Source: Vulcanimicrobiia bacterium | GTDB taxonomy: Bacteria; Eremiobacterota; Eremiobacteria; Baltobacterales; Baltobacteraceae | Length of the DNA: 16,807 nucleotides | Assembly (NCBI GenBank): GCA_024281135.1 | Contig: JAMXLG010000358.1 | Location: 1-16,807, forward strand | Direction: 5' to 3' | Shown here: piece after piece, positions 1-15,706 of the stretch | Layout: each line of letters begins with the position of its first letter | Position numbering within the stretch: the first letter of the stretch is position 1 | Program-made: the position numbers and the translations under genes | The notes under the pieces: model-generated | Told to the model about the DNA's origin: nothing | Databases searched by the model: none | What the model saw: the letters and a program-made list of their open reading frames with translations, nothing else

Positions 1-2322
1 CGTGATCCACGCGCCGTACGGCGGATCGGCGGCCGCAAACGTTCCGGGAGGCGCGCAGCACGCGTTATCACCGACCGGATATGCCGATGTCCACCAGTAG
101 TACCACGACGTCGCGTTGCGAACGGGAAAAAGCGTCGGCTGCGACCCGGCACGCGCCTGCGCAAGTCCTTCGATTGGCGCGACGTCGTCGAGAATGAACA
201 AGCCGCGCCCATGCGAGGCAGCGAGTAGGTCGTGTGTCTGCGGTTGAATGCGCAGATCGTGAATCGAGACCGGCGGCATGCCAAGCCGGAGTGATTCCCA
301 GTGCGCGCCACGATCGAGACTGAACCACGCACCTTGCTCGAGCCCCGCGAAGAGTACGTCGGGATTTACCGGATCTTCGCGCACGACTCGCGCTGGTTCG
401 TTGCGTGGAAGTGTTACTGAAATCGAATGCCACGTTCGCCCCGCGTCTTCCGTGACGACGATGTACGGCTGCCGGTCGCCAAGCACGTGGCGATCAATGA
501 CCGCATAAGCGCGCGTGGCCGACACACGTGACGGCTCCACGCATTCGATGCGTCCCCATGGTGCAATGCCGGCCGGCGAAACGTTGCTCCACGAACCACC
601 GCCGTCGCGCGTGAGCGAGATAACGCCGTCGTCGCTTCCCGTCCAGATCACGTTCGCGTCAACCGGTGAAGGCGCAATATCGAGCAAGGTGTCGTAGAAT
701 TCAGCGCCCGAGATGTCGGTATTGATCGGACCGCCGGCGAGTTGTTGTTTGTTCGGGTCGTTGCGCGTGAGATCGGGACTGAGCGTCGTCCAGCTTCTTC
801 CGCTATCAACCGTTTTAAAGACGACGTTGGCACCGAAGAACGCGGCCCCGGGTTCGAGCGGCGAGAACGCGATCGGCGCTTCCCAGTTGAAGCGGTGCGG
901 CAGTCCGGCGAGCGCGCGGCCATTGGTGTCGGTGACGTCGGGCGTGATGTCGTAGTTCTGCCGCGACTTCATATCGTAAATGCCGAGCTGTCCGTTCAAC
1001 TCGTTGACGCCGTCGTTCCAAATGAGATCCGGATGGCTGGGCTGCGGCCACGCCCACACGCCGTCGGAATTGTTTGCGACGTCCCGCCAATCGGCATTGA
1101 GCAGCCCGATCGGACTGAGCGAAAGATTTGGTCCGCAGAACGAATCGTTGTCTTGCAAAGCTCCGCAGATGGTGTACGGGTTCTGCGCGTCGTAGCCAAG
1201 ATGATAAATCTGCGCAAGCACGACGTTGTAGCGCCAATCCCAGGTGCGTCCACCGTCGACCGAAATCGGAGCGCCGCCGTCATCGGCTTCGATAACGCGT
1301 TTACCGTCGCGCGAAATCCAAAAGCCGTGATGATCTTGGTGGACCGCGTTGTGATCGTCGATCAGCGTCCGGCCGCCGTCTCGCGTTTCAATCAAATTCT
1401 CCGACGCAAAAAAGACGTGATCGCGGTTCGCCGGGTCGACTTCCAAGCGGCTCATGTAAAATGGCCGTTGGTCGACGAGCGTATCCCGCGACATCATGCG
1501 CCAATGCGCGCCCGCATCGTCCGAGCGCCACAAAAGCCCTTCGCGAGATTGAATCAACGCATAGACGCGTCGCGAATCACTCGGCGCTACGGCAATCCCG
1601 ATGCGCCCCATCGTTCCTTGCGGTAAGCCCCCAACGATCAACTTCTGCCACGTGCGGCCGAAGTCGGTCGATTTATAGATACCGTCGACTGGACCGCCGC
1701 TTGTGAACGTCCACGGCACACGGCGGAATTGCCATACGCCTGCATACACGACGTTCGGATGCGAACGGTCGAGTGCGAGGTCGCTGATACCGCTCTGCGG
1801 TCCCGGATAGAGCGTATGATGCCAATTGCGGCCGCCGTCGCTCGTCACGTACACGCCGCGCGCGCTCGAATCGCGGTAGGGATCGCCCAAAGCACCAGCG
1901 ATTGCGCGTTGAGCATTGCGCGGATCGACGACGATGCGCGCAATCGCGTAGGTGTCTTCGAGTCCGCGGTGCGACCAATGCTTTGCGCCGTCCGTCGTTA
2001 CCCAAACACCGTCGCCGTACGATGCATCGTTGCGCGGCGCAGCTTCGCCCGTGCCCGCATAGACGACGTTCGGGTTCGATGGCGCCACGGCGATTGCACC
2101 GAGTGCGCCAACTGACGAAGACGGCCACACGTCATTCCACGTGAGGCCGCCGTTTGTCGTCTTGAACACGCCGCCGCCCGCGGCACCGAAGTAGTAGAGC
2201 AACGGATCGTCGTCACTCCCGGCAACCGCCGCGACGCGGCCACCTCCGCCGGCCGGGCCGACGTTGCGCCACGCGAAATCCGGCGATGCAATGAGCGCCG
2301 CGAACGCGAATGCGCCGACCAT
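1..2322 (-). CDS. Secreted-type BNR/sortilin-like beta-propeller protein, C-terminus cut by window edge
   Basis: The minus-strand frame from the ATG at 2322 stays open to position 1, giving at least 774 residues. The N-terminus (MVGAFAFAALIAS, then WRNVGPAGGGGRVAAVAG) and later stretches (GGGVFKTTNGGLTW, TTDGAKHW, YKSTDFGRTWQK, LGALQDND-like 'CGALQDNDSF', LSPDLTRNDP, AASHGRGLFILDD, and PPYGAWIT at the edge) match the VPS10/sortilin-type 'exo-alpha-sialidase / BNR repeat' proteins of bacteria, which are usually about 1000 residues or more; so the missing part is the C-terminal domain. Asp-box (S/T-x-D-x-G-x-T-W) repeats support a multi-bladed beta-propeller. A short hydrophobic N-terminus could be a weak signal peptide, but it lacks a basic n-region. 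The biochemical role of this family is not established. The start overlaps the upstream Rieske gene stop by one base (TGATG), so the two are probably translationally coupled. Confidence 0.85.
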   Translation of the reverse strand, partial: MVGAFAFAALIASPDFAWRNVGPAGGGGRVAAVAGSDDDPLLYYFGAAGGGVFKTTNGGLTWNDVWPSSSVGALGAIAVAPSNPNVVYAGTGEAAPRNDASYGDGVWVTTDGAKHWSHRGLEDTYAIARIVVDPRNAQRAIAGALGDPYRDSSARGVYVTSDGGRNWHHTLYPGPQSGISDLALDRSHPNVVYAGVWQFRRVPWTFTSGGPVDGIYKSTDFGRTWQKLIVGGLPQGTMGRIGIAVAPSDSRRVYALIQSREGLLWRSDDAGAHWRMMSRDTLVDQRPFYMSRLEVDPANRDHVFFASENLIETRDGGRTLIDDHNAVHQDHHGFWISRDGKRVIEADDGGAPISVDGGRTWDWRYNVVLAQIYHLGYDAQNPYTICGALQDNDSFCGPNLSLSPIGLLNADWRDVANNSDGVWAWPQPSHPDLIWNDGVNELNGQLGIYDMKSRQNYDITPDVTDTNGRALAGLPHRFNWEAPIAFSPLEPGAAFFGANVVFKTVDSGRSWTTLSPDLTRNDPNKQQLAGGPINTDISGAEFYDTLLDIAPSPVDANVIWTGSDDGVISLTRDGGGSWSNVSPAGIAPWGRIECVEPSRVSATRAYAVIDRHVLGDRQPYIVVTEDAGRTWHSISVTLPRNEPARVVREDPVNPDVLFAGLEQGAWFSLDRGAHWESLRLGMPPVSIHDLRIQPQTHDLLAASHGRGLFILDDVAPIEGLAQARAGSQPTLFPVRNATSWYYWWTSAYPVGDNACCAPPGTFAAADPPYGAWIT

Positions 2323-3428
2323 CAAGACATAATGCTCAGGTAGTGGCGGTCGAATGCCGCCAGCAGACCTTCCGCATTTGCATACAACCCCGGCGTATAT
2401 GCACGCGACTCAATGCCTTTTTGTGTCAGTTCGTTCACGTGCCAATCCTGACGATTTGTGAGATCCCAAAACTCGACCGCGTCGCTCGGATCGAAATCCG
2501 AGCGCGACATTGTCTGTGGGTCGAAGAGCCACGCGCAGTCGACAAGCGTGCGATCCGGCGCAACCGGCTTTGCGTAATGAACCATTACGTAGTCGGGATG
2601 CAAGCTCAGAAGCATCGACGGAAAGATCGTGTAGTAGTAGACGCGATCGATGTCGGCACCGTCGACTTCACCGACGGGCGGACGCGCCGTCGCACCGGTC
2701 GTCGTCAAACTTGCGCCGTGATTACGCAACTCGGAGTAGCCGCCGAGGAACTGACCTTCGCACAAATCGTTGCGTCCCGAATCGGACGGTGAGAGTTTAT
2801 CGAGTTGCGGATGAACGAGCGGACAGTGGTAACACTCGGAGTAATTTTGGAAGATCAACTTCCAATTCGCGTGGATGTCGTAGTGAATGGTGCGAGCCGT
2901 CCTTAGCTCACCGATGTGCCAACGGCGAAATCGCCCGATAAGCGGCGCAAACGCTTCTTCGAAATCTGCTGTCCACTCGGAAAGGCAGACAAAGATGAAC
3001 CCTTCCCAGACGCCGACACGCGCTTCGTGCAACGGAAAGTCGGCCGTTGAGAAACCCTCGACATCCGTCATGTTCCGCGCGACTTTGAGCGCGCCGTCTA
3101 AACCATACGTCCAAGCATGATACGGGCACTGGATCGAGCCGCTGAAGTGACCGCTTTGCGCTTCACAGATTCGCGTTCCGCGATGGCGGCAAACGTTGTA
3201 AAACGCGCGCACGTCTCCGTGCTGGTCTTTGACAACGATCAAACTCTCGCGCGCAACTTCCGCGACGAAGAAATCGCCGGGACGCGAGAGCTTCTCGAGG
3301 CGTCCGACGCAAATCCACTCATGCGAAAAAACATGTTCGCCTTCGAGTTCGAACACGTCGGGCGACCGGTACCACCGCGCGTCGAGCGTTTTTTGCCCCG
3401 ATGCGCTGGCCTTGACGAACGAAGTCAT
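2322..3428 (-). CDS. Rieske [2Fe-2S] aromatic-ring-hydroxylating/betaine-type oxygenase, alpha subunit (paralogue 1)
   Basis: The 368-residue product has the two-domain layout of a Rieske non-haem iron oxygenase. The Rieske centre is C80-x-H82 with C101-x-x-H104 (CRHRG and CPYHAW). The catalytic domain carries N195-x2-E198-x2-H201-x4-H206 (NYSECYHCPLVHP), the usual mononuclear iron ligands, with a candidate acidic ligand in FWDLTNRQDW (D322 or D328). Length and motifs fit the glycine betaine, carnitine and stachydrine monooxygenase group rather than large-subunit benzene or naphthalene dioxygenases; the true substrate is not readable. It would need an external NAD(P)H-dependent reductase, which is absent here. 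A GAGGAGG ribosome site lies 8 nt before the ATG at 3428. It is divergent from a paralogue starting at 3563 and shares the motif FDPSDA-x2-FWDL-x-N-x-QDW with it. Confidence 0.9.
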   Translation of the reverse strand: MTSFVKASASGQKTLDARWYRSPDVFELEGEHVFSHEWICVGRLEKLSRPGDFFVAEVARESLIVVKDQHGDVRAFYNVCRHRGTRICEAQSGHFSGSIQCPYHAWTYGLDGALKVARNMTDVEGFSTADFPLHEARVGVWEGFIFVCLSEWTADFEEAFAPLIGRFRRWHIGELRTARTIHYDIHANWKLIFQNYSECYHCPLVHPQLDKLSPSDSGRNDLCEGQFLGGYSELRNHGASLTTTGATARPPVGEVDGADIDRVYYYTIFPSMLLSLHPDYVMVHYAKPVAPDRTLVDCAWLFDPQTMSRSDFDPSDAVEFWDLTNRQDWHVNELTQKGIESRAYTPGLYANAEGLLAAFDRHYLSIMS

Positions 3429-3562
3429 GGAGCCAACCTCCTCGCCGAATAACGTTCGGATTTTCGTGCGGAGGGAGCCCTATCCTTCGGCGCGTATTCC
3501 CATTTCACCGAACGCCATTCGGTGACGAACGCTTCGCGTCGAATGATCCGGGGAGGTGCCAG
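3429..3562. promoter_or_regulatory. Divergent control region between two Rieske oxygenase genes
   Basis: This 134-bp stretch separates two outward-facing paralogous Rieske genes. Both edges carry a strong Shine-Dalgarno site (GAGGAGG on the minus strand near 3441, GGGGAGG on the plus strand near 3550-3556). No convincing sigma-70 -35/-10 pair was found by eye, but the shared region and the central inverted repeat (listed separately) suggest common control of both transcription units. No regulator gene of the pathway is adjacent. Confidence 0.6.
3505..3525. promoter_or_regulatory. Perfect inverted repeat, candidate operator
   Basis: TCACCGAA (3505-3512) and TTCGGTGA (3518-3525) are perfect reverse complements separated by 5 nt (CGCCA). 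The 21-bp element sits 38 bp before the plus-strand start and about 77 bp before the minus-strand start. A dimeric transcription factor site is the natural reading. It is unlikely to be a terminator because no transcription unit ends here and no U-tract follows. Confidence 0.5.
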
Positions 3563-4675
3563 ATGGCCGGCCGGACCTTTAACCGCCTCGAGTCCTCGCT
3601 TCCGCGCCGCGCCTACTGGGATGCGGCGTTCTTCGCACGCGAGCAACGCGCAATCTTCATGGGACAGTGGGTCTACGTCGGTCGCTCGGATTCTCTTCCC
3701 TCGCCCGGCGATTACCGCGTGGTCGACCTTGCGGGTGAGAGCATCATTCTCATTCGTGGCGACAACGGCCGGCTGCACTGCCACATCAACCTCTGCAAGC
3801 ATCGCGGCAGTCGCCTCTTGTGCGGCGAGGGATCGACGCGCGCGATTCGCTGCCCGTATCATGCGTGGGCGTATTCGCTCGACGGACGTTTAATCAGCGC
3901 TCCGTTTATGGACATGGAGCTGCTCCCGGACGACTCGCGACACCTCATCGACGTGGCCGTTGACGAATGGGGTGGGTTCACGTTCATTCATTTGCCTCCG
4001 CAGCGTGAGTCGCTCGCCGATGCGTTAGGCGCCGTTCCGCACCGGCTCGAACGGTATCCGCTTGCTGAATTGCGCACGGCCGCAACGCTCGAGTACGACG
4101 TTCGCGCGAATTGGAAGGTGCTGCTCGAGAACTATAACGAGTGCTATCATTGCGCCGGCGTTCATCCCGAACTCTGCCGCATTGTTCCCGCTTTCAAAGA
4201 CCATGGTGGGGCGAATCTCGATTGGGATCGTGGAATCCCGCATCGCGAAGGCGCTACGACCTTCACCCTCTCCGGCACGACGATGCGTCACCCATTTCCC
4301 GGCCTCGATGACGACGAGCGCACCCGCCACAAAGGCGAGTTGATCTACCCCAACTTTTTGTTGAGTCTGAGCGCCGATCACGTTGCAGCGTTCGAACTTC
4401 AGCCGCTCGCTGTCGACCACACGCGCGTCGTGTGTACGTTCTTATTCCATCCTGACGAGATCGACACACCTGGATTCGATCCGAGCGATGCCATCGATTT
4501 CTGGGATTTGGTGAACCAGCAGGACTGGCGTATCTGCCAATCGGTGCAAGACGGAATGCGCTCAGCGTATTTCCGGCACGGCTACTATGCGCCGATGGAA
4601 GATGCGAGTCTCGACATTCGCCGCTACATCGCCGCGCATTTGGGTGATGATGCGCTGCACGAGGAACCGTCGTGA
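3563..4675 (+). CDS. Rieske [2Fe-2S] oxygenase, alpha subunit (paralogue 2), first gene of operon
   Basis: The 370-residue product has Rieske ligands C78-x-H80 and C97-x-x-H100 (CKHRG, CPYHAW) and the iron site N190-x2-E193-x2-H196-x4-H201 (NYNECYHCAGVHP). The C-terminal FDPSDAIDFWDLVNQQDW block matches the divergently encoded protein, so the two arose by duplication, though they differ enough to suggest different substrates or steps. The likely reaction is O2-dependent hydroxylation leading to N-demethylation of a quaternary amine, as in glycine betaine or stachydrine demethylases; this is inferred from family resemblance and from the neighbouring sarcosine-oxidase-type gene. The ATG is preceded by GGGGAGG with 7-nt spacing. 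The stop overlaps the next start as GTGA (4 bp). Confidence 0.9.
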   Translation: MAGRTFNRLESSLPRRAYWDAAFFAREQRAIFMGQWVYVGRSDSLPSPGDYRVVDLAGESIILIRGDNGRLHCHINLCKHRGSRLLCGEGSTRAIRCPYHAWAYSLDGRLISAPFMDMELLPDDSRHLIDVAVDEWGGFTFIHLPPQRESLADALGAVPHRLERYPLAELRTAATLEYDVRANWKVLLENYNECYHCAGVHPELCRIVPAFKDHGGANLDWDRGIPHREGATTFTLSGTTMRHPFPGLDDDERTRHKGELIYPNFLLSLSADHVAAFELQPLAVDHTRVVCTFLFHPDEIDTPGFDPSDAIDFWDLVNQQDWRICQSVQDGMRSAYFRHGYYAPMEDASLDIRRYIAAHLGDDALHEEPS

Positions 4676-5838
4676 ATCAACGCTACGACGCAATTGTGCT
4701 TGGCCTCGGCGGTATCGGCAGCGGCGCGGCATATTGGCTTGCGCGCAGCGGCGCGCTCGTGCTCGGGCTCGAACAATTCGAACTCGGCCACGCACGCGGT
4801 GAGTCGCACGATCATTCGCGCATTATCCGCTTGTCGTATCACGCGCGAAACTACGTTGAACTAGCCAAACGAGCGTACCAATCTTGGGAGACGCTCGAAG
4901 TCGATTCCGGCGAACGTGTCGTTTTTAAAACCGGCGGTCTCGATCTCGGCCCTCGCATCAGTGCGATCCCGCTCGAAGGGTATGCGGATGCGATGCGATC
5001 GTGTGGCGTTCCGTTTGAGGTCCTTGGAGCGGAACAAATACGCCGGCGTTGGCCCGCGTTTCACATCGACGACAACGTCTGGGGCCTTTACCAGGCCGAG
5101 ACCGGCATCGTCGCTGCCGAACGCGCGACCGCCGCACACCAACGGATGGCGCGTGCATACGGCGCGACCCTTCGTGAGAACGCGCGCGTAGAACGCATTG
5201 ACCTCGATGGTTCCGATGTTGTCGTGCATACGAGCGACGAGACCCATCGCGCAACGCAGTTGATCGTCTGCGCCGGACCGTGGACGAACGCGATGCTCTC
5301 CTACGCCGGCCTACATCTCCCGCTCGAAGTCACAAAAGAACAAGCAATGTACTTCTCGCCGGCGGACATATCGCCGTTCGCGTTCGGCACGTTTCCCGTT
5401 TGGATTTGGATGGACGACCCCTCATTCTACGGGTTTCCGGTTTTCGGGGAAGCTGCCGCCGTGAAAGTCACGCAAGACGCCGGAGGCAAGCCTGTCGATC
5501 CACAAACGCGTACATTCGACGAAGATCCGGATATAACGGCGCGGGTACGTCGTTTCTTGCGCGCACATCTTCCTGCGCTCGATGCACCGCTTCATCTTCT
5601 CAAAACGTGCCTCTATACACTGACACCTGACCGTGACTTCGTCATCGACACTGTTCCGGGAACGACGAACGTGCACGTTGCAATCGGCGCGGGACACGCA
5701 TTCAAATTTGCTTCGGTCATTGGACGAATTTTGAGCGAACTCGCGCTCGACGAAGCGACTGCGAGCGACCTCTCGGGATTTACGATTTCGCGTCCTATTC
5801 TGTCCATGGCAGAACCGCCCAAGACGTACATGGTATAA
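4672..5838 (+). CDS. FAD-dependent amine oxidase of the monomeric sarcosine / N-methyltryptophan oxidase type
   Basis: The 388-residue product begins with a Rossmann FAD motif (G11-x-G13-x-x-G16) and continues with the SHDHSRIIRLSY block seen in monomeric sarcosine oxidase and N-methyltryptophan oxidase (SolA). Near the C-terminus, KTCLYTLTPDRDFVID matches the segment holding the cysteine that binds FAD covalently in this family; here it is C313. These enzymes oxidatively demethylate N-methyl amino acids, releasing formaldehyde and hydrogen peroxide. Length is normal. The GTG start at 4672 overlaps the upstream Rieske stop by 4 bp, so the oxygenase and the oxidase are probably made together; a Rieske step producing an N-methyl amine followed by this oxidase is a coherent route. 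Exact substrate unknown. Confidence 0.88.
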   Translation: MNQRYDAIVLGLGGIGSGAAYWLARSGALVLGLEQFELGHARGESHDHSRIIRLSYHARNYVELAKRAYQSWETLEVDSGERVVFKTGGLDLGPRISAIPLEGYADAMRSCGVPFEVLGAEQIRRRWPAFHIDDNVWGLYQAETGIVAAERATAAHQRMARAYGATLRENARVERIDLDGSDVVVHTSDETHRATQLIVCAGPWTNAMLSYAGLHLPLEVTKEQAMYFSPADISPFAFGTFPVWIWMDDPSFYGFPVFGEAAAVKVTQDAGGKPVDPQTRTFDEDPDITARVRRFLRAHLPALDAPLHLLKTCLYTLTPDRDFVIDTVPGTTNVHVAIGAGHAFKFASVIGRILSELALDEATASDLSGFTISRPILSMAEPPKTYMV

Positions 5839-5842
5839 CTGC

Positions 5843-7264
5843 GTGAATCTCGACGTTGCCGCCTTCGCGATTTACATCGTCATCGTGCTGGTCATCGGTG
5901 CGGTGACGTCGCGCCGCATCGGGAACGCTGAAGACTTTCATCTGTGTGGACGCAGCCTCGGGCCCGTTACCGTCTCGCTTTCGCTTGCGGCAACCGTGTT
6001 TTCCGGTTCAGGATTGATCGGCGGTGCCGGACTTGCATATGCAATAGGGGCGTCGGGTTCGTATTGGAACCTTACTGCGGTGCCGGCGTGGATTCTCGTC
6101 GGCTTAACAATGACGGTCACGATGCGCCGCTTGCGCTTGACGACCGTTCCGGGGTTCTTGGGCTCGACGTATGGCATGAACGCGCGCCGCCTCATCGCAT
6201 TTCTTCAAGTCGTAGAAGCGGTTACGTTCGTCGCGGTCCAAATTACCGTATCGCGACTTGCGCTCGAGACGCTCTTCGGAATGAACGGGCTTCTTGCGGC
6301 GCTGCTTACTACGGCTGTCTTTGTCGCGTACACGGCAATGGGCGGCTTGTGGGCCGTCGTATGGACGGACATCGTGCAGTACATCGTTTTGATGAGCGCG
6401 GTGATTGCCGGTCTGGTGCTTGCGCTCGTGCACGCCGGCGGATGGTCGGCCGTCACCGCTCATCTACCGCCCTCACACTTGAGTCTGGCGCGGCTTGGTC
6501 TGCAGACGCCGTTTGCGTGGTTCGCGTTGTGCGTCTACGCGTGGGCGTGCGACCAGGCGTACATGCAGCGCGCGTTCGCATCTCGTGACGAAGGCACGGC
6601 GCGAACAGCCTATCTGTTCACGGCTGCAACGTATCTCGTGTTTGGCGTCTGCGTCGCGGGTATAGGCATGGCGGCGTCCGTGCTGCTGCCCGGACTTCAC
6701 GATCCGAATCAAGCGTTTCCGCAGTTGATCGCGCATGTCGTGCCTGCAGGCGTGCGCGGCTTCTTCCTTACCGGAATCCTCGCAACGACCATGTCCACCG
6801 CATCCGCGTATCTTGCCGCATCGTCATCGGTTCTCGTTCAAGATATTTATGAGCCGCTGATCAAGCGCGCTGCCGCCGGGCGGCATTTGGTGAGCACCTC
6901 ACGCGTCGCGACGGTTCTGCTAGCGGTCATCTCGTTCGTCGTCGCGTTGCAGTTTCCGAACATCGTCAACGTCGTGATCTTCTCGACGCTCGTCTCGCCG
7001 GCGGCCATCTTCTTCCCGCTGCTCTTCGGTTTGTACGTGAAACGTACGAACCGTCGCGTAGGATTCGCTGCAATTCTGGTTGCCGCGATTGCAGGCGTCG
7101 CCGATCAAGCATGGCTCGCCGGTCACGCAGCGGTTATCGGCGCCATCGATCCACTTTTTTTTGGGCCGCTCGCCGGCCTGATCGTGCTCGCGGGGGGAAC
7201 GCTCGCCGCGCCTCAACACACCACACCGATAGAAAGGCCCATCGTCCATGCCCACGACCTATGA
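5843..7264 (+). CDS. Sodium:solute symporter (SSS family)
   Basis: The 473-residue product is hydrophobic throughout, with around 12-13 predicted membrane helices by eye, beginning at residue 3 directly after the start. The segment G167-G168-L-W-A-V-V-W-T-D176-x3-Q180 is the conserved SSS motif (GG-x-x-AV-x-TD-x-x-Q), and an FSGSGLIGGAGLAYAIG block near residues 53-70 fits the family's helix 2. Family members (PutP, PanF, betaine and sugar symporters) couple Na+ entry to uptake of small organic solutes. Its place after the amine oxidase makes it the likely importer of the pathway's substrate across the inner membrane. The GTG start lies 4 nt after the previous stop. Its 3' end overlaps the next gene by 17 bp. 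Confidence 0.9.
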   Translation: MNLDVAAFAIYIVIVLVIGAVTSRRIGNAEDFHLCGRSLGPVTVSLSLAATVFSGSGLIGGAGLAYAIGASGSYWNLTAVPAWILVGLTMTVTMRRLRLTTVPGFLGSTYGMNARRLIAFLQVVEAVTFVAVQITVSRLALETLFGMNGLLAALLTTAVFVAYTAMGGLWAVVWTDIVQYIVLMSAVIAGLVLALVHAGGWSAVTAHLPPSHLSLARLGLQTPFAWFALCVYAWACDQAYMQRAFASRDEGTARTAYLFTAATYLVFGVCVAGIGMAASVLLPGLHDPNQAFPQLIAHVVPAGVRGFFLTGILATTMSTASAYLAASSSVLVQDIYEPLIKRAAAGRHLVSTSRVATVLLAVISFVVALQFPNIVNVVIFSTLVSPAAIFFPLLFGLYVKRTNRRVGFAAILVAAIAGVADQAWLAGHAAVIGAIDPLFFGPLAGLIVLAGGTLAAPQHTTPIERPIVHAHDL

Positions 7265-8831
7265 CGCCATTATCATTGGCGGAGGACACAACGGTCTCGT
7301 GACCGCGTGTTATCTCGCGCGCGAGAAATGGAAAGTGCTGGTGCTCGAACGCCGGTACATCGTCGGCGGCGCGTGTGTGAGCGAAGAGACGTTTCCCGGA
7401 TATAAAGTCTCGACCGCTGCGTACGTGAACAGCTTGTTTCGCCCGGAGATTGTGCGCGATCTGAATTTAAAAGCGTACGGTTTTGAAGCGATCGAACGCA
7501 ACCCGGCATCGTTTACGCCATTTCTCGACGGCCGCTATTTGATGCGCGGACGCGACGAGCAGAGCGATCTCGCCGAAATCGCGAAATTCAGCAAACGCGA
7601 CGCGGAAGCGTATCCGAAATATGAGGCGATGCTCGAGCGCGTTGCATCGATCATCGAGCCGACGCTCACGCAAATTCCGCCCAACGTGCTCCGGCCCGGA
7701 CTCGGCGACCTCTTCTCGATGGGCAAGCTCGGACGCGGCATGCAGAAACTCGGTCCGGCCATGGCTGAAGCGGTGGAAATGCTCACCGGTGCGGCACGGC
7801 CGATTCTGGACCGCTGGTTCGAAAGCGAAGAGTTGAAAGGCACGATCGCGACCGATGCGATCATCGGCGCGTTCATGGCGCCGTCGATGCCGGGTACTGC
7901 CTACGTGCTCTTCCATCACGTGATGGGAGAAACGAACGGGAAGAAAGGCGTCTGGGCATACATGCGCGGCGGGATGGGCGGCTTAACGCAATCGCTCGCG
8001 CGCGCGGCCAAAGACCTGGGCGTTGATATTCGCACCGAAGCCGAGGTCACGAAGATCCTCACCAAAGACGGCGCTGCAACCGGCGTCGTGCTCGCGAACG
8101 GTGATGAATTCCACGCCAAGAAAGTTGCCAGCGGCGTCGACATGCATCTTACGTTCGAGAAGTTTCTCGATCCGAACGCGCTGCCGCCGGAATACCGCGA
8201 AGCCGTTTCGCGTATCACCTATGAAAGCGCATCGGTAAAAATCAATGTAGCGATCGAGCGCTTGCCGAGCTTTACGGCGATGCCAGGTCACGAAACGGGA
8301 CCGCAGCATCATGGAACCGTGCACTTTGTTCCGGATCAAGACTTCATCGAGCGCGCGTACGACGATGCGAAGTACGGCGAGCCGTCGCGCGATCCGGTGG
8401 TCGAATGCTGCATGCCTTCATCGTTGGACTCGACGGTTGCACCGGCCGGCAAGCACTTGATGTCCATGTTCGTTCAATATGCTCCGTACAAACCGAAGAG
8501 CGGACAGTGGACGCAGGAGATGCGCGATCGTTTCGCCGACCGGTGCTTCGACATCATCGAACAACATGCGCCCGGCTTCAAAGATTCCGTGATCGATCGG
8601 CAAATTTTAACGCCGCTCGACATCGAAGAAAAGTTCGGCCTGACAGGCGGGAATATTTTCCAGGGAACGATGCCATTTCACAACTTGTATGTGTTCCGTC
8701 CGGTTCCCGGCTATGCAAACTATAAGACACCGATCAAGAACCTCTTCATGTGCGGCTCGGCCGCGCATCCGGGCGGCGGCGTGATGGGTGCACCTGGTTG
8801 GAACGCGGCACGCGAAATGCTCAAGAGCTAG
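7248..8831 (+). CDS. NAD(P)/FAD-dependent oxidoreductase, PYROXD2/phytoene-desaturase-like
   Basis: The 527-residue product has an N-terminal dinucleotide motif G11-G-G13-H-N-G16 followed by LERRYIVGGAC, the typical start of the phytoene desaturase-like FAD superfamily. It carries the FGLTGGNIFQG block (T466) and the C-terminal GGGVMGAPGWNAAREML signature that closes the FAD site. Overall length and motifs fit the PYROXD2-type subgroup found widely in bacteria, whose substrates are mostly unknown; carotenoid desaturation is not indicated because no crt genes are near. It begins within the end of the symporter gene (17-bp overlap), preceded by AAAGG about 10 nt upstream. In this operon it probably oxidises an intermediate, but that is inference. 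Confidence 0.88.
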   Translation: MPTTYDAIIIGGGHNGLVTACYLAREKWKVLVLERRYIVGGACVSEETFPGYKVSTAAYVNSLFRPEIVRDLNLKAYGFEAIERNPASFTPFLDGRYLMRGRDEQSDLAEIAKFSKRDAEAYPKYEAMLERVASIIEPTLTQIPPNVLRPGLGDLFSMGKLGRGMQKLGPAMAEAVEMLTGAARPILDRWFESEELKGTIATDAIIGAFMAPSMPGTAYVLFHHVMGETNGKKGVWAYMRGGMGGLTQSLARAAKDLGVDIRTEAEVTKILTKDGAATGVVLANGDEFHAKKVASGVDMHLTFEKFLDPNALPPEYREAVSRITYESASVKINVAIERLPSFTAMPGHETGPQHHGTVHFVPDQDFIERAYDDAKYGEPSRDPVVECCMPSSLDSTVAPAGKHLMSMFVQYAPYKPKSGQWTQEMRDRFADRCFDIIEQHAPGFKDSVIDRQILTPLDIEEKFGLTGGNIFQGTMPFHNLYVFRPVPGYANYKTPIKNLFMCGSAAHPGGGVMGAPGWNAAREMLKS

Positions 8832-8849
8832 AGGAAGGGAGAGATCGCC

Positions 8850-9758
8850 ATGAGTGAATTTTCGAAAGTCGGCATCGTCGGAACCGGACGCATGGGTGCG
8901 AATATCGCGCGACGCCTCAAGGACGTCGGCTACACGATCGCTGCACTCTACGACGTGAACCCGGCCGCCGCAAAAGAGACCGCGCGCGAGACGGGCGGAG
9001 AAGTCACGCGTTCGCTTCCTCGCGTAACCGAACTTAGCGACGTCATCGTCACCGTCGTTACCGACGACGCGGCGATGTACCAGATCTTCGCCGGATCCGG
9101 TGCGCTTCTCGACGGCGCAAAGGGCAAGATCTTCGTGAATTGCGCTACTATTACGCCGAGCGTCCACGTCGACATCGAACGCGTTGCCGAAGCAGCCGGT
9201 GCACAAAGCTTGGAAGCTTGTATGGCGAGTTCCATTCCGCAAGCTCGCAACGGCACGCTATATTTGATGGTGAGCGGAAAGCGCGACGCCTTCGAGCGCG
9301 TCCGTCCCATGCTTGAAAAGATGAGCGCGTCACTCAAATACATCGGCGACGCGGGACGCGCGGCCCAAGTCAAAGCGCTCGTCAACATGGTGATGAATAT
9401 CAATACGGCCGGACTTGCGGAAGGGCTTGGTCTCGGCAACGCGCTCGGACTCGATCTCGACATGCTTCGCGAAGTCTTCTCGCAAACCGGCGCGAATTCA
9501 CGTGTGCTCGAGACCGATGGCCTCGACATGCAAAATCGCGACCATGACTGCTACTTCTCGGCCGAACATGCCGCAAAAGATTCGGGCATCGCCCTTTCGC
9601 TCGCGGAGGACGAAGATTTGCGTCTTCCGCTAGCACAAGCGACATTCGAACAATTTGAGTTGATGAAACGTCTCGGACTCGGCGGACTCGACAAGTCGGG
9701 CGTCTCCGAACTCACGTTTCCAAACCGCCACGCGCAACACTTAACTGCACGCACGTAA
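8850..9758 (+). CDS. NAD(P)-dependent 3-hydroxyisobutyrate dehydrogenase-family enzyme
   Basis: The 302-residue product starts with a Rossmann fold (G11-x-G13-x-x-G16, then an aspartate in YDVNPAA, suggesting NAD rather than NADP) and has the family's catalytic lysine in the segment AAQVKALVNM (K175, N179), as in 3-hydroxyisobutyrate dehydrogenases, tartronate semialdehyde reductases and related beta-hydroxyacid dehydrogenases. Length is typical. A purine-rich ribosome site (AGGAAGGGAGAG) precedes the ATG, 18 nt after the previous stop. It may reduce or oxidise a short hydroxy or oxo acid formed by the upstream flavoenzymes; which direction and substrate cannot be told. Confidence 0.9.
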   Translation: MSEFSKVGIVGTGRMGANIARRLKDVGYTIAALYDVNPAAAKETARETGGEVTRSLPRVTELSDVIVTVVTDDAAMYQIFAGSGALLDGAKGKIFVNCATITPSVHVDIERVAEAAGAQSLEACMASSIPQARNGTLYLMVSGKRDAFERVRPMLEKMSASLKYIGDAGRAAQVKALVNMVMNINTAGLAEGLGLGNALGLDLDMLREVFSQTGANSRVLETDGLDMQNRDHDCYFSAEHAAKDSGIALSLAEDEDLRLPLAQATFEQFELMKRLGLGGLDKSGVSELTFPNRHAQHLTART

Positions 9759-14736: not shown

Positions 14737-14779
14737 ACGCCGCCAATTGTTCAGTGTGACATGCACTCCCTCTCAACGA

Positions 14780-14785
14780 ATTATA
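14780..14785 (-). promoter_or_regulatory. Candidate -10 box for the TonB-dependent receptor
   Basis: On the minus strand the sequence reads TATAAT exactly, in a locally AT-rich stretch (TTTTTATAATTCG). It would start transcription near 14773 and give a leader of about 75 nt that includes the hairpin at 14714-14736. No good TTGACA-like -35 is found 16-18 nt upstream, so it may depend on an activator or another sigma factor. Confidence 0.4.
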
Positions 14786-14855
14786 AAAAGGTAACTCATT
14801 GCTGCATATCGACGTGGGAAAATAAAGCCTATTGCAATGCAACACAATTGGTGGC

Positions 14856-14867
14856 ACATGCGCATGT
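14856..14867. promoter_or_regulatory. 12-bp perfect palindrome in intergenic region
   Basis: ACATGCGCATGT is its own reverse complement. It lies between the divergent TonB-receptor leader and the small HNH-like ORF, 13 nt before that ORF's likely start. A shorter palindrome, ATTGCAAT, is at 14831-14838. A transcription factor site is possible; a 12-bp palindrome may also occur by chance. Confidence 0.25.
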
Positions 14868-14880
14868 CACGATCGCACGA

Positions 14881-15180
14881 ATGAATTCGAAAAAGACACG
14901 ACGACTGTGTCAAAACGGATGCAAGCGACGAATCGCACTGCCCGTTGTAAAATTTTGTTCACTTCGGTGTTCAGCTGACTACAGATTCAAAGGAACGTCG
15001 CGTCTGCTGGAGACGGGCATGTACCGAGGCTCGACAGATAGCTACTTCTTGTGCAAATATCTCGTACACAAATATGGTGAGCGCTGCTGCTGCGGAGCGC
15101 CGACGTTTCGAGCGCTCAATAAAGGGCGCGGCCGCCCCATGCGGCGTGTCGCGAGCAAGGACCCCGGCTCAGGCTCTTGA
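14881..15180 (+). CDS. Small zinc-ribbon / truncated HNH-endonuclease-like protein
   Basis: From ATG 14881 the product is 99 residues: two cysteine pairs, C10-x3-C14 and C26-x3-C30 in KFCSLRCSADYRFK, then SYFLCKYLVHKYGERCCCGA (C69, C70, C71). This order (zinc ribbon with FCS-x2-C, a linker, then 'RYL-x-x-KYG-x-x-C-x-x-CG') resembles the front half of phage and mobile HNH endonucleases, but the H-N-H catalytic half that should follow is replaced by a short basic tail, so the gene is truncated or decayed. An in-frame ATG at 14761 exists, but the extra 40 residues run through palindromic promoter-like, AT-rich DNA and look non-coding. No Shine-Dalgarno site is seen. It ends 32 bp before a tRNA gene, a common place for mobile-element remnants. 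If it is not a gene, 14697-15212 holds only the regulatory elements listed. Confidence 0.45.
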   Translation: MNSKKTRRLCQNGCKRRIALPVVKFCSLRCSADYRFKGTSRLLETGMYRGSTDSYFLCKYLVHKYGERCCCGAPTFRALNKGRGRPMRRVASKDPGSGS

Positions 15181-15212: not shown

Positions 15213-15295
15213 GCCGACGTGGCTGAGCGGTTGAAAGCACGCGATTTGTAATCGCGCCTCGAAAGAGCTCGCCGGTTCGAATCCGGCCGTCGGCT
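15213..15295 (+). tRNA. tRNA-Thr(UGU) with class II-like long variable arm
   Basis: An 83-nt cloverleaf folds cleanly. Acceptor GCCGACG (15213-15219) pairs with CGTCGGC (15288-15294), discriminator T. The D arm GCT...AGC spans 15222-15238 and reads GCTGAGCGGTTGAAAGC, as in Ser/Leu tRNAs. Anticodon stem CGCGA/TCGCG has loop TTTGTAA, anticodon TGT at 15247-15249. The variable region (15257-15270) is 14 nt and can form a CTC-GAAA-GAG mini-hairpin. The T arm is GCCGG-TTCGAAT-CCGGC (15271-15287). CCA is not encoded. G1-C72, C2-G71 and anticodon bases G35, U36 are threonine identity elements, so charging with Thr is expected; however, the long arm belongs to the Ser/Leu/Tyr class, which is odd. ACA codons in this window fall at conserved Thr positions, consistent with normal decoding. 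Confidence 0.88.
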
Positions 15296-15361: not shown

Positions 15362-15706
15362 ATGCAACCCGTTAAACCCAAGTGGCTGAAGAGCGGCCTC
15401 GTGCTTGTGTGCGAGCGCTGCTTCAAAGAACGCATTCCCGAAGAATCGCCAGAAGTTGCCGAGCGCATCGGAGACTTCAACCTGCGCAATTGGCTGAAGT
15501 CGGAACTCAAAGAACACGGTGAGTGGGGGCCGATTCGCGTCATCTCGACGAGTTGCATGGACGTCTGCGCGAAGGACAAAGTCACCGTCTGCCTCGATCC
15601 GAAAAACGGCGATCCCGCTGAAGTGATGGTCGTCGATCCCGTCGAGGAGAAGCAAGCCGTCTACGACATCATCGTCGAGCGGATGGGCCACAGAGAAGAA
15701 TCCTGA
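15362..15706 (+). CDS. Small cysteine-rich protein, probable [2Fe-2S] thioredoxin-like ferredoxin
   Basis: The 114-residue product carries C17-x2-C20 near the N-terminus and C65-x3-C69 (TSCMDVCAKDKVTV) in the second half, with C77 besides. The C-x3-C followed by a K-x-x-V-T-V strand resembles thioredoxin-like [2Fe-2S] ferredoxins, although those normally have about ten residues between the first two cysteines rather than two, so a different metal site is possible. No signal peptide. No Shine-Dalgarno site precedes the ATG, and no other in-frame ATG exists before residue 66. It follows the tRNA by 66 bp and is separated from the next gene by a hairpin. Function unknown; an electron carrier for the distant Rieske oxygenases is conceivable but unsupported. 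Confidence 0.7.
   Translation: MQPVKPKWLKSGLVLVCERCFKERIPEESPEVAERIGDFNLRNWLKSELKEHGEWGPIRVISTSCMDVCAKDKVTVCLDPKNGDPAEVMVVDPVEEKQAVYDIIVERMGHREES

Follow-up and report, generated by a model that had tools for sequence, protein, structure and literature searches.

The tRNA genes of bacteria have been called "surprisingly uniform", and in the accessible part of the same source the long variable arm is tied to the tRNAs for serine, leucine and bacterial tyrosine (PMC4033280). Two described systems come close to the gene reported here. The nematode nev-tRNAs also combine a class II frame with anticodons that belong to class I amino acids, have V-arm elements like those of class II tRNAs and are charged with leucine in vitro, according to the parts of the sources available (PMC4300185, PMC4033280), whereas the present tRNA keeps threonine ends and is the only tRNA-Thr(UGU) in one genome, G015. 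The allo-tRNAs are likewise bacterial and join serine-type features to non-serine anticodons, but in the accessible text they have a 12-bp acceptor branch (8/4 or 9/3) and SerRS elements (PMC7609411), whereas the present gene has a 7/5 branch and threonine ends. Both systems differ from it in identity elements, and in the portions of these papers that were available neither appears as an orthologue alternating between classes. A search of the open-access literature, with papers accessible in part and with subscription papers and preprints outside its range, revealed no class II bacterial tRNA-Thr.

A single tRNA gene, a tRNA-Thr with anticodon tgt on the forward strand, has been called by ARAGORN in the window (the whole stretch of DNA analysed, 16,807 nt, or 16.8 kb), and the Rfam model RF00005 matched the same 15213-15295 span with 60.1 bits and an E-value of 4.3e-11. 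The parts of the gene and its two neighbours are listed in Table 1. ARAGORN, Rfam and the inspection of pairing agreed with the original prediction on the class II frame, the 14-nt variable region with its CTC-GAAA-GAG hairpin, the UGU anticodon and the GCCGACG/CGTCGGC acceptor stem. The variable region (CCTCGAAAGAGCTC), with a hairpin that covaries across the phylum, places the gene among the class II tRNAs as these are defined in the accessible text of PMC7609411, by a structured variable arm of at least 10 nt. All 17 pairs of the acceptor, anticodon and T-stems are formed, the anticodon lies within a normal 7-nt loop and the fourth D-stem pair is missing. The acceptor stem together with U73 is common to the class I tRNA-Thr(CGU) of G001, G004 and G015. 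Features of serine tRNAs were absent from both ends of the molecule: the anticodon is UGU and the acceptor starts GCCGACG, while the Eremiobacterota tRNA-Ser genes read start GGAG (G1-C72, G2-C71). Orthologues with matching acceptor, U73, loop and frame exist in other Eremiobacterota genomes, so the gene is not a chance match, and the class II tRNA-Thr(UGU) of the window is confirmed as a real, intact gene.

Table 1. Coordinates of the tRNA gene, its parts and the adjacent reading frames in the window.
Feature	Position	Strand	Basis
tRNA-Thr(UGU), class II frame, 83 nt	15213..15295	+	ARAGORN, Rfam RF00005, orthologues
Acceptor stem, 5' strand GCCGACG; same in class I Thr(CGU) of G001, G004, G015	15213..15219	+	
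Positions 8-26 with D-arm, TGGCTGAGCGGTTGAAAGCA; 3 D-stem pairs, 13-22 is G.A	15220..15239	+	
Anticodon arm CGCGA-TTTGTAA-TCGCG; anticodon TGT at 15247-15249	15240..15256	+	
Variable region, 14 nt; hairpin CTC (15258-15260), GAAA (15261-15264), GAG (15265-15267)	15257..15270	+	hairpin covarying across the phylum
T-arm GCCGG-TTCGAAT-CCGGC	15271..15287	+	
Acceptor 3' strand CGTCGGC and discriminator U73	15288..15295	+	
Downstream gene, 114 aa, starts MQPVKPKW	15362..15706	+	no Pfam match; start codon picked by eye
Small upstream ORF	14761..15180	+	no Pfam match

The surroundings of the tRNA are kept in part in the close relative G139, whose contig (L023/L331) carries a tRNA of the window type and encodes, in the same order, counterparts of three window proteins located downstream of the tRNA with 82%, 83% and 68% identity. 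The window is accordingly assigned to Candidatus Eremiobacterota, a little-known phylum. The product of the first downstream gene is 82% identical to an ORF of G139, and genes with a similar DNA start, compared by eye, follow the tRNA in G077, G048, G033 and G136. The product of the small upstream ORF is 44% identical over 71 aa to the ORF located upstream of the tRNA in G139. The PYROXD2-like protein of the window shares 83% identity with that of contig L014. Pfam analysis of another part of the window (2322-9758) revealed a gene cluster encoding two Rieske ring-hydroxylating oxygenase-type proteins, an FAD-dependent oxidoreductase (DAO), a sodium:solute symporter, a flavin amine-oxidase-type protein and a 3-hydroxyisobutyrate-dehydrogenase-type protein. 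In many relatives the Thr(UGU) gene is found near tRNA-Tyr, tRNA-Gly(TCC) and tRNA-Thr(GGT), in the cluster order Thr(UGU)-Tyr-Gly-Thr(GGU); the order in E. coli is thrU-tyrU-glyT-thrT. We take the class I counterpart to be the thrU-like first gene of this Thr-Tyr-Gly-Thr cluster.

The distribution of the class II form has been studied in 148 genomes drawn evenly from Eremiobacterota. Genome contigs were scanned with a pattern in which a Thr anticodon comes after a Ser-like D-arm; of the 23 loci obtained, 11 are class II tRNA-Thr(UGU) according to ARAGORN (8 from Eremiobacterota, one from a 'bacterium' (L014), one from Bacteroidales (L012) and one from Thermoleophilia (L017)); at the other 12 matches ARAGORN gave no tRNA. 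The window-type pattern matched 12 of the 148 genomes, 11 of them true by sequence and one (G025) false, and a strict class I UGU pattern matched 45 of the 148 and none of the 11 with a window-type gene. Thr(UGU) genes were then collected with covariance models and fetched stretches, from 117 genomes by script and from G088 by eye, giving 119 rows that correspond to 118 of the 148 phylum genomes plus the window; in the remaining 30 genomes no Thr(UGU) was found or read. The variable region was of 4-5 nt in 74 of these 119 genes, of 6-7 nt in 5, of 11 nt in 2 and of 13-21 nt in 38. The original prediction that the lineage has a tRNA-Thr(UGU) on a class II frame is thus borne out by orthologues across Eremiobacterota. 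These tRNAs have the long variable arm in common with the canonical class II tRNAs (Ser, Leu and bacterial Tyr), from which they differ in the Thr anticodon, the Thr acceptor ends and the arm itself, which is of 13-15 nt in 31 of the 38, mostly with 2-3 bp under a GNRA loop. In four class II forms (G054, G121, G133 and G088) the arm reaches 18-21 nt and 5-6 bp and is no shorter than the Ser arms parsed (16 nt in 4 of 4 from Eremiobacterota). U73 is present in all 39 Thr(UGU) genes with a variable region of at least 11 nt and in 77 of the 79 with a shorter one, G088 standing outside this count. The other threonine isoacceptors parsed, in counts drawn from fetched loci rather than from a full search, were uniformly class I, with a 5-nt variable region and U73 in 27 of 27 genomes for Thr(CGU) and 28 of 28 for Thr(GGU).

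Several individual genes were also recorded during this survey. In the class II Thr(UGU) of G088 (L146:1501-1593) position 33 is a C (loop CCTGTAA) and the variable region is 21 nt long. Among the short-arm genes, that of G108 (L108) has an odd D-arm (GGCGGAATGGTTACGC) and that of G067 (L176) a variable region of 4 nt. One of the 9 tRNAs that the Bacteroidales contig L012 carries in 8 kb is a class II Thr(UGU) with the same acceptor stem and T-stem as the class I Thr(UGU) of that genome (L030); the set looks like a candidate mobile or phage tRNA array. The Thermoleophilia MAG G006 likewise has a class II Thr(UGU) (L017:956-1039); no further one was found among the best 20 loci from 99 genomes of the same class.

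The long variable regions are variable in sequence and constant in their pairing. All 38 can form a stem of 2-6 bp starting at nucleotide 1-3, whose letters vary freely while complementarity is kept (CCC/GGG, CGC/GCG, GAC/GTC, TGC/GCA or AAGCCC/GGGTTT, under GNRA-type loops). The loop is GAAA, GCAA, GTAA or GCGA in 37 of the 38 and CGAAA in G138; for a few two- or three-pair regions the script picked another register of equal length, and the GNRA register was taken by eye. In a simple search the mean stem was 2.95 bp as compared with 2.21 in shuffled sequences (maximum of 200 shuffles, 2.55), a mean that includes the two 11-nt regions and counts related sequences separately. The 11-nt variable region forms no stem. 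The first 12 sequences aligned (10 distinct) are paired in 100% of cells throughout the acceptor, D, anticodon and T stems, and each of the five pairs of the anticodon stem has changed on both sides; the variable stem as aligned is paired in 66.7% of cells, its outermost pair in only 2 of 10. Plain folding of single sequences did not give the cloverleaf as the minimum for the window gene or L001; among the four class II genes folded, L088 gave the cloverleaf and L325 kept the arm with an altered D-arm. The plain folds support the cloverleaf only partly, so the evidence for the variable arm is comparative. The covarying hairpin shows, on this comparison, that the fold of the arm has been kept; it says nothing of any advantage in having the arm.

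The D-arm differs between the two forms as well. The class I and class II tRNA-Thr(UGU) have the same acceptor type and anticodon loop, the same Tyr-Gly(TCC)-Thr(GGT) neighbours in many relatives and, in two pairs of genomes, the same slot, but the class II form has a D-arm of 20 nt in 32 of 38 genes, an arm of 13-21 nt instead of 4-5 nt, and positions 13 and 22 unpaired in 37 of 38. This is the pattern of canonical class II tRNAs, in which 13-22 is unpaired. Pairing of 13 with 22 is seen in 61 of the 74 short-arm genes, none of the 7 intermediates and 1 of the 38 long-arm genes. The 13 short-arm failures consist of G020 (a parsing fault), G108 and 11 genes with the variable region CAATC, whose D-arm is GGCTCAGCGGCTACAGC or differs from it by one letter. 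Near-identical D-arms are found with the variable regions CATTTC, CATTACC and AATACCACACC and, in G085, with a 15-nt hairpin. The series looks like a possible path from class I to class II, leaving aside the direction in each case; the class I genome G136 is nested in a class II group on the ThrRS tree.

The Ser/Leu-like D-arm of the original prediction holds for the window's own group, which has GGCYGAG in 15 of the 38 class II genes, and fails for the other 23, with AGCCAAG, TCCCTAG, ACCCGAG, CCCATAG and more. Thr(UGU) of G004 and G061 and Ser(UGA) of G031 have one and the same complete D-arm, and Thr(UGU) of G117 shares its D-arm with Gln(UUG) of G015. Given this variety and the match to Gln(UUG), likeness of D-arms is a poor guide to descent, and the D-arm has been rejected as proof of a serine origin.

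The comparison of closely related genomes revealed the same gene block with tRNAs of different class in the pairs G077 (class II)/G048 (class I) and G033 (class II)/G136 (class I). The main matching ORFs are about 70-95% identical in the first pair and 86-96% in the second, and in both pairs the poorer matches are the ORFs just upstream of the tRNA and overlapping wrong-frame ORFs. Identical positions in G033/G136 were 88/88 for tRNA-Tyr, 74/74 for tRNA-Gly, 65/75 for Thr(GGT) and 46/72 for Thr(UGU); in G077/G048, where Tyr and Gly are on another contig in G077, they were 84/85, 72/74 and, for Thr(UGU), 54/74. tRNA-Tyr and tRNA-Gly are 97-100% identical in these two close pairs and Thr(UGU) 64-73%; on these alignments the UGU gene is, in both, the one that has changed far more than the other tRNAs. 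The DNA right after the tRNA is alike at 92% in G033/G136 (119 nt) and 86% in G077/G048, and the stretch before it aligns poorly. A more distant pair, G003 (class II)/G060 (class I), gives a weaker contrast (Tyr 78/88, Gly 64/74, Thr(GGT) 70/75, Thr(UGU) 58/76).

The class assignments have also been placed on a ThrRS tree, a quick tree of one gene from 67 mostly fragmented genomes, in which G136 is represented by one of its two ThrRS genes. Class II and class I genomes are interleaved on it, and on its well-supported branches the class II label must have changed at least 10 times. In a 64-genome version, without three long rows, the fewest class changes were 16 and a single clade of the 29 class II rows was rejected (p-AU 0.00018). 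The Thr(UGU) gene appears to have switched body plan many times in the phylum while still being read as threonine. Some of the switches could be binning errors, because many of the genomes are in many contigs with completeness not given; two pairs have the backing of synteny.

Decoding has been analysed in G015, the only genome whose tRNAs were all read, which consists of one 3.5-Mb contig. Among its 45 tRNAs (RF00005) the threonine set consists of three genes, Thr(UGU) of class II and Thr(GGU) and Thr(CGU) of class I, beside which there are four Ser, five Leu and one Tyr. The class II gene is therefore the sole UGU gene of that genome and must read ACA there unless another Thr tRNA does so. 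In the ThrRS gene, columns with ACA in class II genomes hold Thr at 0.46 and Ser at 0.044 in class I genomes (26 codons), and the columns with ACA in class I genomes hold 0.466 and 0.041 (40 codons); Ser codon columns hold Thr at 0.053 and Ser at 0.546. ACC and ACG lie on more conserved Thr columns (0.69 and 0.66) and ACT at 0.40, with similar values in class I genomes. Since ACA falls on Thr and not Ser columns, equally in class I genomes, this test, covering the ThrRS gene of class II relatives, provides indirect evidence that the class II Thr(UGU) decodes ACA as threonine in the relatives; the ordinary decoding originally proposed is favoured and the Thr/Ser ambiguity is not. Among the Thr codons of ThrRS genes, ACA accounts for 27 of 850 where the genome is of class II and for 44 of 822 where it is of class I; across eleven genes of the window it accounts for 39 of 330, a minor yet not negligible share.

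Of 80 genomes, 65 gave a ThrRS that passes the family cut-off, and the four scanned for domains have the ordinary ones. A regular expression found the editing motifs in 66 of 67 sequences, the remaining one being cut by the contig end. A loss of the N-terminal TGS in ThrRS was considered and dropped, as Pfam finds no TGS in the deep-branching class I genome G009 either. The editing motifs of ThrRS could clear serine. Known threonine identity lies, in the accessible text of PMC9976931, in acceptor pairs and anticodon, which are the parts that vary least among these Thr tRNAs. SerRS does not read the anticodon, according to the parts of PMC7609411 and PMC9976931 available, so UGU alone does not exclude charging with serine. 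U73 is weakened as a barrier to SerRS as well, because tRNA-Ser(UGA) also has it in 19 of 19 Eremiobacterota genomes read (L097, L110, L113, L310 and 15 of L332-L350); Ser(GGA), Ser(CGA) and Ser(GCU) as read have G73. The SerRS of Eremiobacterota may have no need for G73, and the remaining barriers that would keep it off are the shorter arm, in most genomes, and C2-G71.

The gene is very probably a working tRNA-Thr(UGU) that is charged with threonine by an ordinary ThrRS and reads ACA, with a core that varies freely. Its ends (acceptor stem, U73 and anticodon loop) are those of the ordinary Thr tRNAs of the lineage, and its core (D-arm and variable region) has been rebuilt as class II. As known Thr identity lies in acceptor stem and anticodon, ThrRS would read only the ends of the tRNA and leave the core unpoliced, and an unpoliced core together with a minor codon may explain why the UGU gene changed its core many times in Eremiobacterota. 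Charging by ThrRS, rejection by SerRS and relaxed constraint as the cause are the inferred steps; in the pairs examined the gene has kept its chromosomal slot, and a new core would arise either through mutation step by step or because a diverged copy took the place of the gene. Recognition by both ThrRS and SerRS, causing or serving Thr-to-Ser substitution at ACA, is improbable. The class II frame, the Ser-like D-arm of the window's group (in G004 and G061 that of Ser(UGA) itself), the U73 of Ser(UGA), by which U73 alone is no bar to SerRS, and the 18-21 nt arms of four Thr(UGU) would suit it, but ACA aligns with Thr and not Ser, just as it does in class I genomes (one gene), most of the arms (31 of 38) are 13-15 nt long where the four Ser arms parsed from Eremiobacterota measure 16 nt, and the ThrRS editing motifs are kept. 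The acceptor also has C2-G71 where the Ser tRNAs read have G2-C71, and C2-G71 is a SerRS antideterminant in E. coli tRNA-Leu in the accessible part of PMC9976931. The Ser-derived chimaera of the original prediction fits poorly with the Thr-Tyr-Gly-Thr cluster of many relatives, the variable regions of 5, 6, 7 and 11 nt and the 23 of 38 genes that have other D-arms. A decayed gene, or an assembly or binning chimaera, is the least credible reading: many relatives are fragmented metagenome assemblies, but the stems are intact with compensatory changes, synteny is conserved and contigs of 3.5, 0.97 and 0.85 Mb carry class II genes.

The arrival of class II cores by recombination, in which the gene or its interior is replaced from another lineage or another tRNA, concerns the origin of the core and is compatible with threonine charging by an ordinary ThrRS; its probability is put slightly short of even. 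In G033/G136 the 119 nt after the tRNA and the identical Tyr and Gly genes stand beside a Thr(UGU) with 46 of 72 positions alike and a preceding stretch that aligns poorly; G019 and G143 have the same anticodon arm, variable region and T-arm with different D-arm and acceptor; and identical D-arms occur across tRNAs of different identity, in the serine and glutamine cases given above. Against this, among the tRNA-Tyr, tRNA-Ser and tRNA-Leu read, comparison by eye revealed none that combines the D-arm of a class II Thr(UGU) with its variable arm, the full tRNA set coming from one genome, and the intermediates (6, 7 and 11 nt) are in keeping with stepwise growth. Inspection of the tRNA listing by eye gave no support to the adjacent tRNA-Tyr as core donor.

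In this phylum a threonine tRNA crosses the long-arm boundary, many times by the ThrRS tree and with intermediates. The Thr(UGU) genes may serve as a natural experiment on the origin of class II tRNAs and on what ThrRS and SerRS really read, and they would supply candidate ThrRS substrates with unusual cores. In these genomes the isotype of a tRNA is not to be inferred from its body plan.
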